In this document: positions 58,376 to 62,167 of the stretch, in pieces
Layout: each line of letters starts with the position of its first letter
Position numbering within the stretch: position 1 is the first letter of the stretch
DNA from: Corynebacterium glyciniphilum AJ 3170
GTDB taxonomy: Bacteria > Actinomycetota > Actinomycetes > Mycobacteriales > Mycobacteriaceae
Length of the DNA: 64,000 bases
Direction: 5' to 3'
Assembly: GCF_000626675.1 (NCBI RefSeq)
Contig: NZ_CP006842.1
Location: forward strand, 558,001-622,000
Made by a program: the position numbers and the translations under genes
Notes under the pieces: generated by a model
Database searches by the model: none
Seen by the model: the letters and a program-made list of their open reading frames with translations, nothing else
What the model was told of the DNA's origin: nothing

Positions 58376-58389
58376 TACCCCCGGGGGTA
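58376..58389. promoter_or_regulatory. 14-base palindrome, copy 1
   Basis: TACCCCCGGGGGTA is a perfect palindrome; the same sequence recurs at 58553-58566. The C-rich/G-rich symmetric pattern with flanking TA is like operators of CsoR-family repressors. Confidence 0.6.
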
Positions 58390-58492
58390 TTACGCTCCCT
58401 TTTTACTTTCCGGTGGGATAGTGTTCAGCTTGTACGGGGAGTGATGACCTCCGCACACGGCCTATCTGGATGGGTCAACCTTTCGATGTGAG

Positions 58493-58530
58493 CGCGCACT
58501 TCGGCGAAGGATCTGCTGCTGAAGTGCGCG
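58493..58530. terminator. Probable hairpin between the palindromes
   Basis: CGCGCACTTC and GAAGTGCGCG form a perfect 10-base-pair stem with an 18-base loop followed by TTT. It may end the topA transcript or fold in a leader. Confidence 0.45.
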
Positions 58531-58552
58531 TTTGCCTTGTCTTGATACATGG

Positions 58553-58566
58553 TACCCCCGGGGGTA
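58553..58566. promoter_or_regulatory. 14-base palindrome, copy 2
   Basis: The second identical TACCCCCGGGGGTA, 177 bases from the first and about 108 bases upstream of the micro-peptide start. Identical repeats suggest one dimeric or tetrameric regulator binding at both. Confidence 0.6.
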
Positions 58567-58673
58567 ACTATGTTCACAGGGGGAATAGTTTTGCCGGGGA
58601 TGTCGATGTATTCTCCGAGTTGTAGTGGAAAACACCTGCTGCGCCCCCTTCCTTCTCAGAAAGAGAGACCATC

Positions 58674-58766
58674 ATGATCGAGGCTATTCAGACCATCATC
58701 AGCACCGTTGCCGGTGCCATCGTTGGCGTCTTCCAGGCCCTCGTGGGCTCCCTCCAGGGCTGGTAA
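58674..58766 (+). CDS. 30-residue amphipathic peptide (possible mini-porin), copy 1
   Basis: A 30-residue open frame from ATG 58674 (MIEAIQTIISTV, ending GSLQGW). AAAGAGAG precedes it, and a perfect terminator follows. It has no signal peptide and one acidic and no basic residues. Polar or small residues recur at 3, 7, 10, 14, 18, 21, 25 and 28, one face of an alpha-helix; the rest is hydrophobic. Known corynebacterial PorA/PorH cell-wall channel proteins are similarly short, acidic, signal-less amphipathic helices, so this may be a mini-porin. Alternatives are a leaderless bacteriocin or phenol-soluble-modulin-like peptide. Function is not established. Confidence 0.7.
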   Translation: MIEAIQTIISTVAGAIVGVFQALVGSLQGW

Positions 58767-58780
58767 GTCGCCCTAGTGCA

Positions 58781-58816
58781 GAAGAAGCCCCCAGGTCACG
58801 GCCTGGGGGCTTCTTC
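58781..58816. terminator. Terminator after micro-peptide 1
   Basis: GAAGAAGCCCCCAGG pairs perfectly with CCTGGGGGCTTCTTC (15 base pairs, 6-base loop), 14 bases after the stop. Confidence 0.9.
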
Positions 58817-58992
58817 CGTGTGGGACTGGGTTTTCCGGTGTTCGTGACTGTTCGGGGGAGTGAAGGAGTACCCGCAAGGACGTGCTGCTGATTTGCCTGC
58901 AACAGTGTTTTCCCAAAAGTAGGTAGGATACGGGGTGCGGCCTGGAACAGCTGGGCCGTGCAACATTGTCTTCCATCGAAAGGGCGATCACC

Positions 58993-59094
58993 ATGATCGA
59001 GACCATCCAGGGCATCATCACCACCGTTTCCGAGGCTCTCGTTGAGGTCTTCAACTCCATCGTCAGCTCCGTGCAGGGTGGCGGCGAGGCCTAA
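58993..59094 (+). CDS. 33-residue amphipathic peptide (possible mini-porin), copy 2
   Basis: A 33-residue open frame from ATG 58993 (MIETIQGIITTV, ending SSVQGGGEA) that aligns without gaps with the first peptide: the MIE-IQ-II-TV start and the VF and Q-G positions match. It has four Glu and no basic residue, and the polar stripe again falls at 3, 7, 10, 14, 18, 21, 25, 28. GAAAGGG lies at 58979-58985, and a TAGGAT -10-like element is near 58924, so it likely has its own promoter. A terminator follows. Tandem duplication of a mini-porin-like gene is the simplest reading. Confidence 0.7.
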   Translation: MIETIQGIITTVSEALVEVFNSIVSSVQGGGEA

Positions 59095-59113: not shown

Positions 59114-59145
59114 GATCCCCCACGCTACGGCGTGGGGGATCTTTG
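59114..59145. terminator. Terminator after micro-peptide 2
   Basis: GATCCCCCACGC and GCGTGGGGGATC form a perfect 12-base-pair stem with a 4-base loop, then TTT. Confidence 0.9.
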
Positions 59146-60640: not shown

Positions 60641-62167
60641 TTATCCCCGCTCCGCCAGCGTCGACCGGATGGGACGGGCCAGCTGGGTCATTTCCTTGCG
60701 TCCGCGCAGTTCCACGGACTTCATCAGCGTCCAGCGTGCCTGCTCTGCTTCATTGGCTTTACGCAGCGTCGACGCGTTGGTCAGGACGCGGCCCGGTGTG
60801 TCCTTCGCCAGTTCGGTCAACCGGGCGGCAGCGTTCACGGCGTCACCGATGACGGTGTACTCGAAGCGGTCGCTGGCTCCGATGTGTCCGGCAACAACCT
60901 CACCGACGGCAGCACCGATGCCGGCGGGGAGCTCGTGGTCGGCGAGCTCCTGATTGAGCTCCCGGGCCGCTGCGAGCGTATGACCGGCCATGTCGTCCAG
61001 GGGGATCGGCGCACCGAAGACTGCCAGGGCTGCATCACCCTCGAACTTGTTGATGATGCCCTTGTTCCGGTGCACGACCTCGACGACCTTGTCGAAGAAG
61101 CTGTTCAGTGCCTTGACCACGTGCTGCGGGGACGAGGAGACAGCGAAGCCGGTGGAACCGATGACGTCCACGAACAGCACACCGACGAACCGGTTCGCCC
61201 CGCCGAGCTCCGGTTTCTCCTCGATGGCGCGACGGGCGACCTCTGTTCCGACGTAGCGTCCGAACAGGGTGCGCACCTGCTCACGTTCGCGTAGCCCCTG
61301 CATCATCTCGTTGAAGCCTGCCTGCAGGACACCGATCTCGGTCGCATCGTAGATGCGGACCTGGGCGTGTGAGTCGCCACGCCGGACCCGGTTCATGGCG
61401 TACTGCAGTTCGCGAATGGGGTCGACCACGGTCATGGTGATCAGGCGTGTGCCCGAGAACCCGGTGAACAGGGCGGTGAGACTGAGCGCGAGAACACCCG
61501 GGAGGATCTCCCGGGCGTCACCGGTGAAGAAGTTCGTGGCCTGGGCAGCCACCATCAGCACCACGCCGATGACGGGGACGGCCGAGGTGAGGATCCACAC
61601 GCTGGTGATCTGGAGAGACAACGGGGAGATGCGTCCCTGCGGAGCACCCGTGCGGTTGAGGGCCTTCGCCGCGACGGGACGGACGAGTCGTTCGGCGACC
61701 ATGAAAGTCATCAGGACGACCATCGCCCCGCCGAGGATGGCGGTGACCGCCACCGAGAGCGCCCACCGTCCGGAGACCTGGGAGGCGACGACGGTGAAGA
61801 TGACCACGCCAATGCCCCACAGCACCGCACCCAGGATGGCCTGGAGAGCCGGGATACGCAGCACCAGGCGTCTGATCATCACAGGGTCCACGGGGTCGGG
61901 GTTGCGTTGCCACCTCAGCACGGGCGCGAAAAAGAAGAGGGTCGCGCTGATGCCGGTGACCAGAGCCACGATGAAGTACACGGTGTACAGCGTTGCGGTC
62001 ATGGTGTTGACCGTCGTCAGTTCCGTCGCACCCCCGAGGGGTACGAGGAAACGGAGGAAAGATGCCACCGCAAGTGACCCGACGACGTTGACCATGAACA
62101 CGGACAGGGCGTACAGCGGCCAGGTGGTGCCCCACGCCCACGCGATGTACTGCCCCAGTCTCTGCAT
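60641..62167 (-). CDS. cyaB: Membrane adenylate cyclase
   Basis: A 508-residue class III cyclase with about six N-terminal membrane helices, a HAMP domain (about 245-300, DPIRELQYAMNRVRRGDSHAQV) and a catalytic domain from about 310. Metal Asp is seen in VGVLFVDVIGSTGF, and the transition-state region NAAARLTELAKDTPGRVL follows. It makes cAMP, which GlxR (37.2-37.9 kb) senses. The symbol follows the C. glutamicum gene at this position. It ends 13 bases from the convergent mntH. Confidence 0.93.
   Translation of the reverse strand: MQRLGQYIAWAWGTTWPLYALSVFMVNVVGSLAVASFLRFLVPLGGATELTTVNTMTATLYTVYFIVALVTGISATLFFFAPVLRWQRNPDPVDPVMIRRLVLRIPALQAILGAVLWGIGVVIFTVVASQVSGRWALSVAVTAILGGAMVVLMTFMVAERLVRPVAAKALNRTGAPQGRISPLSLQITSVWILTSAVPVIGVVLMVAAQATNFFTGDAREILPGVLALSLTALFTGFSGTRLITMTVVDPIRELQYAMNRVRRGDSHAQVRIYDATEIGVLQAGFNEMMQGLREREQVRTLFGRYVGTEVARRAIEEKPELGGANRFVGVLFVDVIGSTGFAVSSSPQHVVKALNSFFDKVVEVVHRNKGIINKFEGDAALAVFGAPIPLDDMAGHTLAAARELNQELADHELPAGIGAAVGEVVAGHIGASDRFEYTVIGDAVNAAARLTELAKDTPGRVLTNASTLRKANEAEQARWTLMKSVELRGRKEMTQLARPIRSTLAERG

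Follow-up and report, generated by a model that had tools for sequence, protein, structure and literature searches.

The PorA and PorH channel proteins of corynebacteria are acidic, and several other described systems resemble parts of the locus analysed here. Type I toxin-antitoxin systems such as ldr/rdl and ibs/sib are multi-copy pairs of a peptide and an antisense RNA, phenol-soluble modulins are leaderless, short, amphipathic helices encoded in multiple copies, and MicF and MicC are enterobacterial sRNAs that prevent translation initiation on mRNAs for outer-membrane channels, the gene for MicC adjoining a porin gene. Actinobacteria are not known to possess Hfq.

PorA and PorH are described as tiny, signal-less amphipathic helices encoded by paired genes in most species, and porA/porH and the genes for PorACj and PorACur are placed between groEL2 and ppk2 (PMC3792995, PMC5944148). 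PorACur of C. urealyticum, with 37 amino acids, is reported as the smallest pore-forming protein (PMC5944148). PorH and ProtX are reported to be linked to the cell wall, and an AlphaFold model has been presented in which five helices each of PorH and PorA form a pore belted by lipidated serines (PMC12632848). The sequence context of O-mycoloylation is given as Ser/Gly-rich and non-strict (PMC11066868). One source names six species said to have no mycolates; C. glyciniphilum is not one of them (PMC8733736).

The locus described here lies in the window, by which we mean the whole 64-kb stretch of Corynebacterium glyciniphilum DNA that was analysed. Judged from its sequence, it is best described as a system of mini-porin-like peptides with co-evolving antisense RNAs, a new variant beside PorA/PorH. 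To the whole reading, namely mini-porin-like peptides under antisense-RNA control, we assign a probability of roughly one half. Open-access titles and abstracts, a body of literature without the subscription journals, yielded no comparable Corynebacterium system, including any in which PorA/PorH is combined with an sRNA.

Two tandem peptide genes and an upstream RNA gene candidate

The features of the locus, in window coordinates and all on the plus strand, are the following.

58377-58388, plus strand: palindrome ACCCCCGGGGGT, candidate regulator site 5' of the RNA gene
58419-58424, plus strand: presumed -10 box TAGTGT of the RNA gene, placed by eye
about 58426-58534, plus strand: candidate antisense small RNA gene of ~110 nt with three hairpins, ends approximate, from fold, model match and complementarity
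58492-58531, plus strand: terminator-like hairpin of the RNA gene, from fold and sequence, with a weak T-run
58554-58565, plus strand: second palindrome ACCCCCGGGGGT, 5' of ORF1
58660-58667, plus strand: ribosome-binding site of ORF1, AAAGAGAG, by eye
58674-58766, plus strand: ORF1, 30-aa amphipathic peptide MIEAIQTIISTVAGAIVGVFQALVGSLQGW
58781-58816, plus strand: inverted repeat or terminator-like hairpin 3' of ORF1, by eye and as an opposite-strand self-match
58974-58983, plus strand: Shine-Dalgarno (SD) region of ORF2, CATCGAAAGG, nt -19 to -10, with 10 nt complementary to the small RNA
58978-58984, plus strand: RBS-like GAAAGGG before ORF2, by eye
58993-59094, plus strand: ORF2, 33-aa amphipathic peptide MIETIQGIITTVSEALVEVFNSIVSSVQGGGEA
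59114-59141, plus strand: inverted repeat or terminator-like hairpin 3' of ORF2, by eye

The first-pass annotation had reported two tandem genes for peptides of 30 and 33 residues, and both frames are present as it placed them. Consistent with its description, they align without internal gaps (57% identity), each is preceded by its own ribosome-binding site (AAAGAGAG and GAAAGGG, respectively), a signal peptide is absent from both as judged by eye, and positions 3, 7, 10, 14, 18, 21, 25 and 28 form a stripe of polar or small residues in both. Its perfect terminator after each gene stands for the stem, a long perfect inverted repeat in either case, and not for the terminator as a whole, since the T-runs are short and the terminator scan listed neither repeat. 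The helical hydrophobic moment over residues 1-27 exceeded 500 of 500 shuffles for each peptide, and AlphaFold, run on the single sequence of ORF2, gave one helix over residues 2-29 with a mean pLDDT of 91.3. A counterpart of ORF1 sits at the matching place in each of two further genomes, G194 and G003, and the ORF2 protein is identical at 33 of 33 residues across these two and the source genome, its gene differing by no more than one synonymous change. Among paralogues pN/pS was 0.79 and 1.03, and the synonymous-site test that the first-pass annotation had proposed as a refutation is uninformative here. The observation is confirmed and is larger than first noted, comprising further copies and the upstream candidate RNA gene. 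On the minus strand, 3' of an mntH-like gene, a 508-aa frame at window positions 60641-62167 resembles a membrane adenylate/guanylate cyclase by eye.

A lineage-specific family of acidic amphipathic peptides

The source genome (G000) holds nine paralogues. Besides ORF1 and ORF2 there are seven copies, arranged as three further pairs and a lone gene and spread over four loci elsewhere, and 12 positions are invariant in the alignment of the nine. Profiles run against 242 genomes of the genus, followed by inspection of the loci, brought the family to 45 copies in five Corynebacterium genomes, with 9 in the source genome, 13 in G194 (matched to Corynebacterium sp. CNJ-954; a weak match, E 0.0387, inside a 118-aa frame is omitted), 7 in G003 (matched to C. 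glyciniphilum DE0385), 13 in G207 and 3 in G075, of which two were found by profile and one by inspection. G000, G194 and G003 are referred to below as the glyciniphilum group. G207 was a marginal match for the peptide profile A1 (E 0.0988), and it was the RNA model described below that pointed to this genome. One further copy in G024 stands outside the 45, as do weak peptide matches in other genomes. At E <= 0.001, an order-level sample of 397 genomes gave one match, the source genome itself.

In C. stationis (G236), tandem acidic amphipathic peptides of 41 and 46 aa are encoded downstream of an apparent tRNA end (L126, C1:225670-226643) in a genome that retains PorA/PorH; this pair is possibly a distant branch of the family.

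The peptides are 27-46 aa long, mostly 27-33 aa. All 45 carry a net charge of -6 to -1, neither Lys nor Arg occurs in 35 of them, and Ser at position 26 and Gly or Ser at position 25 are each found in 44. For 48 of 48 peptides, a set that includes the single G024 peptide and the two of C. stationis, the hydrophobic moment over residues 1-27 was higher than in shuffles at the 5% level. Codons of the nine source-genome genes are skewed to GTT, GCT, TCC, ACC and GGC relative to the 45 long frames of the window, a reference other than known highly expressed genes. The G207 list used in the codon and pN/pS, moment, SD-complementarity, unpaired-segment and position-correlation analyses includes C61:10675, which the profile did not report, and lacks C61:9998-10087; the main tests were repeated with the corrected 45-peptide list and their outcome was unchanged.

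Above cut-off, Pfam matched none of the peptides scanned with it (two from the window, three relatives, one from G075 and two from C. stationis), and NCBIfam none of its set (two from the window, one from G075 and two from C. stationis). A sub-threshold NCBIfam match of ORF1 to EscS/YscS (E 0.068) was ignored. Among 5.8 billion proteins, the 46-aa member of the family matched only itself, a hypothetical protein of CNJ-954. This is compatible with the earlier expectation that such genes are unannotated in related genomes, and only suggestive of it for the other copies, because this search needs shared exact words.

The leaderless amphipathic helices, the several similar copies and the codon skew would also suit secreted or surface surfactants of the modulin type, or bacteriocin-like peptides, whose output the RNA would tune. 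Phenol-soluble modulins likewise are leaderless, short amphipathic helices in several copies. However, the peptides scanned gave neither a modulin nor any other match in Pfam or NCBIfam, and no exporter, modulin-type or other, and no immunity gene was named among the 21 annotated frames of the partly annotated flanks. The acidic charge speaks against cationic bacteriocins in particular, so that the bacteriocin reading offered by the first-pass annotation fits poorly in its cationic form. We regard surfactant or bacteriocin-like peptides as improbable.

The main alternative is a type I toxin-antitoxin-like system, in which the peptides would enter the cytoplasmic membrane and arrest growth unless an RNA antitoxin blocks their translation. 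The small hydrophobic peptides, encoded in tandem and at dispersed sites, their occurrence in few species and the lack, by eye, of an export signal agree with such a system. Most type I toxins, however, are unlike these acidic, mostly Lys/Arg-free peptides, and the charge range and the composition given above argue against it, as does the codon skew of the peptide genes. A further counterargument comes from the neighbourhood of two clusters. A second ppk2 paralogue is kept beside a peptide cluster across two lineages (L133, L137, L146, L138), and a gene for a ~700-aa acyl-CoA dehydrogenase-like protein lies beside a cluster in two lineages (L136:9426-11519, L141:7264-9360), and such retention suggests vertical inheritance of the clusters and not mobility. 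ORF2 was also unmatched in plasmids and phages and the A1 pattern in viral contigs; a phage, plasmid or viral origin was rejected on the same grounds. Near the L136 and L141 clusters, no small RNA was recognised. Between the peptide cluster and the second ppk2, a 362-aa minus-strand frame is present (L133:9362-10447, L137:9932-11017), and its L133 copy has a weak match to the N-terminal domain of type I restriction R proteins.

Comparison with PorA/PorH

In size, charge, amphipathicity and the missing signal peptide, the peptides are like PorA/PorH, PorACj (40 aa, C. jeikeium) and PorACur, and most are shorter than PorACur (37 aa), the smallest proven channel. In contrast to PorA/PorH, they are mostly 27-33 aa long, match no NCBIfam profile, lie outside the groEL2-ppk2 interval in up to 13 dispersed copies and are linked to antisense-like RNAs.

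Five peptides scanned (two from the window, one from G075, two from C. stationis) gave no PorA/PorH match in NCBIfam, while C. glutamicum PorA and PorH sequences do match these profiles. Searched at E <= 0.1 with the profiles for PorA (NF033925) and PorH (NF033938), none of the six genomes G000, G003, G194, G207, G024 and G075 gave a match, their family peptides included; C. glutamicum, the control, and C. stationis were matched, the C. stationis PorA below its curated cut-off. Absence was assessed in seven chosen genomes, a sample too small for a genus-wide link, and with one of two PorH profiles (NF033938, not NF033937).

The groEL2-ppk2 gap held no porin-like frame in the five genomes in which it was readable (G000, G003, G194, G207 and G024; that of G075 was not readable); a single frame, of 34 aa in G003, came through the filter, and it overlaps into ppk2. 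The same gap in C. stationis keeps PorH- and PorA-like frames. No peptide cluster was found at the groEL2 locus. Porin-locus synteny of the L133 cluster was considered and rejected, the adjoining ppk2 being the other paralogue, 53% identical to the porin-locus ppk2. A groEL2 gene closely followed by the porin-locus ppk2 is seen at L149 (G000:C1:2959296-2960168 and upstream), L148, L150, L151 and L152.

The peptides are not filed as PorA/PorH, since two tested features, profile match and locus, fail. Of the earlier suggestion of extra mini-porins, the mini-porin part is retained as the most likely function, with chances of about even, and the word extra is probably wrong because the canonical pair was not found. 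The conserved Ser26, with Gly or Ser at position 25, is compatible with the Ser/Gly-rich context of O-mycoloylation, and Ser26 would also allow a lipid-belt arrangement, which by analogy is only a lead.

The same serine, together with the reported wall linkage of PorH and ProtX (PMC12632848), would fit peptides with a structural, non-channel role in the mycomembrane or cell wall, for example mycoloylated anchors, under RNA control. The continuous narrow polar stripe is what would be required of an oligomeric channel and argues against this explanation, which we hold to be improbable.

The candidate small RNAs

Upstream of ORF1, the window carries what appears to be a separate unit. In it a palindrome and a -10-like box are followed by two hairpins, then by the single-stranded CCTTTCGATG and a hairpin that resembles a terminator. 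The loop of hairpin 1 reads GTGATGA and that of hairpin 2 CTGGATGG. TAGTGT or TAATGT stands at the position equivalent to the -10 candidate in 8 of 13 other RNA copies of the glyciniphilum group; a sigma-70 scan of the window did not report the TAGTGT.

In total, 24 candidate RNAs were collected in three lineages, 14 in the glyciniphilum group, 6 in G207 and 4 in G075. Eight of the 14 form group A, first spotted by eye and by a loop motif; the other six, group B, came from a search with the pattern GATCATG, which is complementary to the start codon. Model R1 was built from the eight group A cores with a hand structure named from single-sequence folds; the window RNA is itself part of R1 and matches it at 58432-58488. 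R1 led to three G207 RNAs and R2 to a fourth, and two more were found in G207 by motif. Of the six group B RNAs, R1 recovered a single one, at E 0.1. Complementary 9-mers and inspection by eye led to the four G075 RNAs, which neither the R1 nor the R2 search reported.

An orphan RNA at L081 (G000:C1:21032-21089, minus strand) scored E 0.007 with R1 and E 3.0e-4 with R2, and no peptide gene was recognised near it. RNA matches in G224 and G226 (G224 at R1 E <= 0.01, both at R2 E <= 0.001) were not accepted because they looked coding-like by eye, and the RNA count leaves out R1 matches at E <= 0.01 in G093, G098, G112 and G115. No local RNA was recognised at clusters L075, L064 and L070 or at L128 and L129 of G207, nor near the tandem C. 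stationis peptides and the single G024 copy, all of which are left out of the pairing statistics.

In an 11-sequence alignment (A6), fitted to the hand structure and excluding the group B and G075 RNAs, 7 of 13 pairs had changed on both sides, against 1-5 in slid controls, with hairpin 1 paired in 92.9% and hairpin 2 in 70.9% of cells. RNAalifold on the 14 cores gave a consensus of 0 pairs, the MAFFT alignment having misplaced hairpin 2.

In a search of 12 loci and 2.4 kb of the window, no Rfam family, and among them no known type I antitoxin RNA, reached its gathering score, a further point against the toxin-antitoxin explanation; a match to rdlD, at 26.8 bits versus a cut-off of 50, coincides with the hairpin that follows a peptide gene.

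Complementarity between the RNAs and the peptide mRNAs

When 14 RNA cores were compared with positions -25..+33 of the peptide genes of the same genome, 98 complementary 7-mers were counted, as compared to a mean of 24.3 and a maximum of 46 in 500 shuffles. Control windows were in sum at shuffle level (-85..-27, 32 versus 27.8; +33..+91, 20 versus 21.4), with single high values for L072-2671 in the former (10 of 500 shuffles) and L065+3211 in the latter (16 of 500). Taken singly, 4 of the 14 RNAs were unremarkable (28, 208, 26 and 59 of 500 shuffles), and the counts for the group B and G075 RNAs are partly built in because these RNAs were found through complementarity.

The matched segments are mostly ordered, loop 1 falling on codons 4-10, loop 2 on the start codon or codons 4-6 and the tail on the SD. 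The correlation of positions is antiparallel in the glyciniphilum group (rho -0.80) and G207 (-0.83); in G075 (-0.28) the order is not consistently so, with two of four RNAs positive. Matched segments are more often unpaired in the predicted fold than the remainder, at 66% vs 25% in the glyciniphilum group, 57% vs 21% in G207 and 51% vs 33% in G075.

With the four source-genome RNAs, the nine peptide starts share a mean of 3.33 7-mers (lowest 2.0) and 79 control gene starts 0.28 (maximum 1.75); with 6-mers, 1 of the 79 controls equals the lowest peptide start. The two source-genome group A RNAs alone give 2.28 for the peptides and 0.34 for the controls, 2 of 79 controls reach the peptide mean, and for two of the nine starts, those of ORF1 and of the lone gene at L078, no 7-mer is shared. 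The window RNA, itself of group A, accordingly fits ORF2 and several paralogues and not ORF1, the start region of which is better matched by the group B loops. In the L075 cluster (C1:638777-639171), the SD of the first gene is complementary over 12 nt to the orphan RNA L081, which carries UCUACCUUUCGG. R1 also scores the antisense strand of the peptide starts just below the RNAs, in the window at 58974-59029 on the minus strand with E 0.058. On this complementarity, it is very probable that the RNAs pair with the peptide mRNAs.

A small hydrophobic peptide with an RNA complementary to the start of its mRNA is a toxin-antitoxin feature that is present here by computation. Type I systems are alike in their short hydrophobic peptides, repeated loci and RNA complementary to the translation start, the nearby RNAs complementary to both SD and start codon speak for such a system, and antisense control of dispersed copies suits it as well. 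They differ in that here the peptides are acidic, the RNA is mostly encoded on the same strand beside the gene, and pairing would proceed by several short segments and not by a long perfect overlap. Taking these points together with the peptide characters and the Rfam result, we consider a type I toxin-antitoxin-like system unlikely; if it were true, it would constitute a new, large type I-like family in Actinobacteria.

Loops and start codons change together between lineages

Most messages of the glyciniphilum group open with AUGAUCGAG, and the RNA loops of this group read CUCGAUCAUG or CUGGAUGG. Many G207 messages start AUGCUGGAC or AUGCUGCCC, and the RNA loops carry CAGCAUG, in most as CCAGCAUG, L106 having a different loop. 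Messages of G075 start AUGAUCGAC, and its RNAs carry GUGUCGA or GCGAUGG. The SD part is equally complementary in every lineage.

Co-evolution was assessed by counting 6-mers in the coding start (-4..+33) of the own and of the other lineages, with 200 shuffles. On their own lineage, group A RNAs scored 3.23 versus 0.98 in shuffles, group B RNAs 5.41 versus 1.04 (partly built in), the four model-found G207 RNAs 3.27 versus 1.06 and the G075 RNAs 2.42 versus 0.59 (partly built in), in each case with 0 of 200 shuffles reaching the value. The match to the own lineage holds for the four G207 RNAs, which were found without using complementarity to G207 messages. Across lineages, group A fell to shuffle level (0.44 on G207, 0.88 on G075), as did the G207 RNAs (1.25 on glyciniphilum-group messages, 1.08 on G075). 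Group B gave 3.00 on G075, AUGAUCGA being common to both, and the G075 RNAs were slightly raised on the other two lineages (1.33 and 1.00; 22/200 and 12/200). With 7-mers, the G075 signal in the coding start was weak (18/200 shuffles).

The shuffle counts overstate certainty and are not probabilities, because some control cells exceed shuffles too, for example group A on +33..+84 of G207 messages (1.66 versus 0.89, 1/200) and group B on +33..+84 of its own messages (1.30 versus 0.68, 3/200). That the loops have changed in step with the peptide start codons between lineages is supported by these sequence statistics.

A proposed mode of action

ORF1 and ORF2 are members of a family, multi-copy and restricted to certain lineages, of leaderless and mostly acidic amphipathic helices. 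These most likely oligomerise in the outer mycolate membrane into miniature channels and would take over the job of the PorA/PorH pair, which was not found in these genomes. Many clusters also have what appears to be an independent unit encoding a three-hairpin RNA of ~110 nt, which would pair via its two hairpin loops and a single-stranded CCUUUCG tail (CCUUUCGAUG) with the start codon, codons early in the frame and the Shine-Dalgarno sequence of peptide mRNAs. Such pairing would block ribosome loading on the neighbouring genes and, in trans, on paralogues, and the window RNA would act on ORF2, with 10 nt on its SD, rather than on ORF1. The peptide family, the RNA structure, the complementarity and the lineage change are supported by sequence statistics; transcription, repression, export, membrane location and channel function are inferred.

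MicF and MicC are similar in that an RNA acts at the translation start of a channel mRNA and, for MicC, in that the RNA gene lies beside a porin gene; the difference is that here several RNAs per genome lie beside the peptide genes and differ between lineages along with their targets.

Somewhat more tentatively, an undescribed family of ~30-residue mycomembrane pores may have replaced PorA/PorH in part of Corynebacterium, with dedicated antisense RNAs that co-evolve and by which the cell would choose its subunits. If the proposed reading is true, these would be pore-forming proteins smaller than PorACur; it would suggest how corynebacteria without PorA/PorH make their outer membrane permeable and provide a natural case of RNA-target co-evolution in actinobacteria. 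With either the mini-porin or the toxin-antitoxin explanation, about 45 genes for short peptides and 25 candidate genes for RNAs are revealed that one protein search and Rfam had missed.

A palindrome shared by RNA and peptide genes

With at most one mismatch, ACCCCCGGGGGT has two matches in the 64-kb window, both at this locus, where 0.53 are expected and two or more were obtained in 12 of 100 shuffles; the two matches in the window alone exceed chance by little. Across 205,944 bases of 13 loci, at the same stringency, 13 matches were found. These loci had been chosen for holding peptide genes, with L143 and L145 not among them, and 3 of the 13 are without a match. Each of the 13 matches has a peptide or RNA gene no more than about 340 bp away, and the palindrome, which presumably resembles RamA sites, may jointly control the RNA and the peptide genes.
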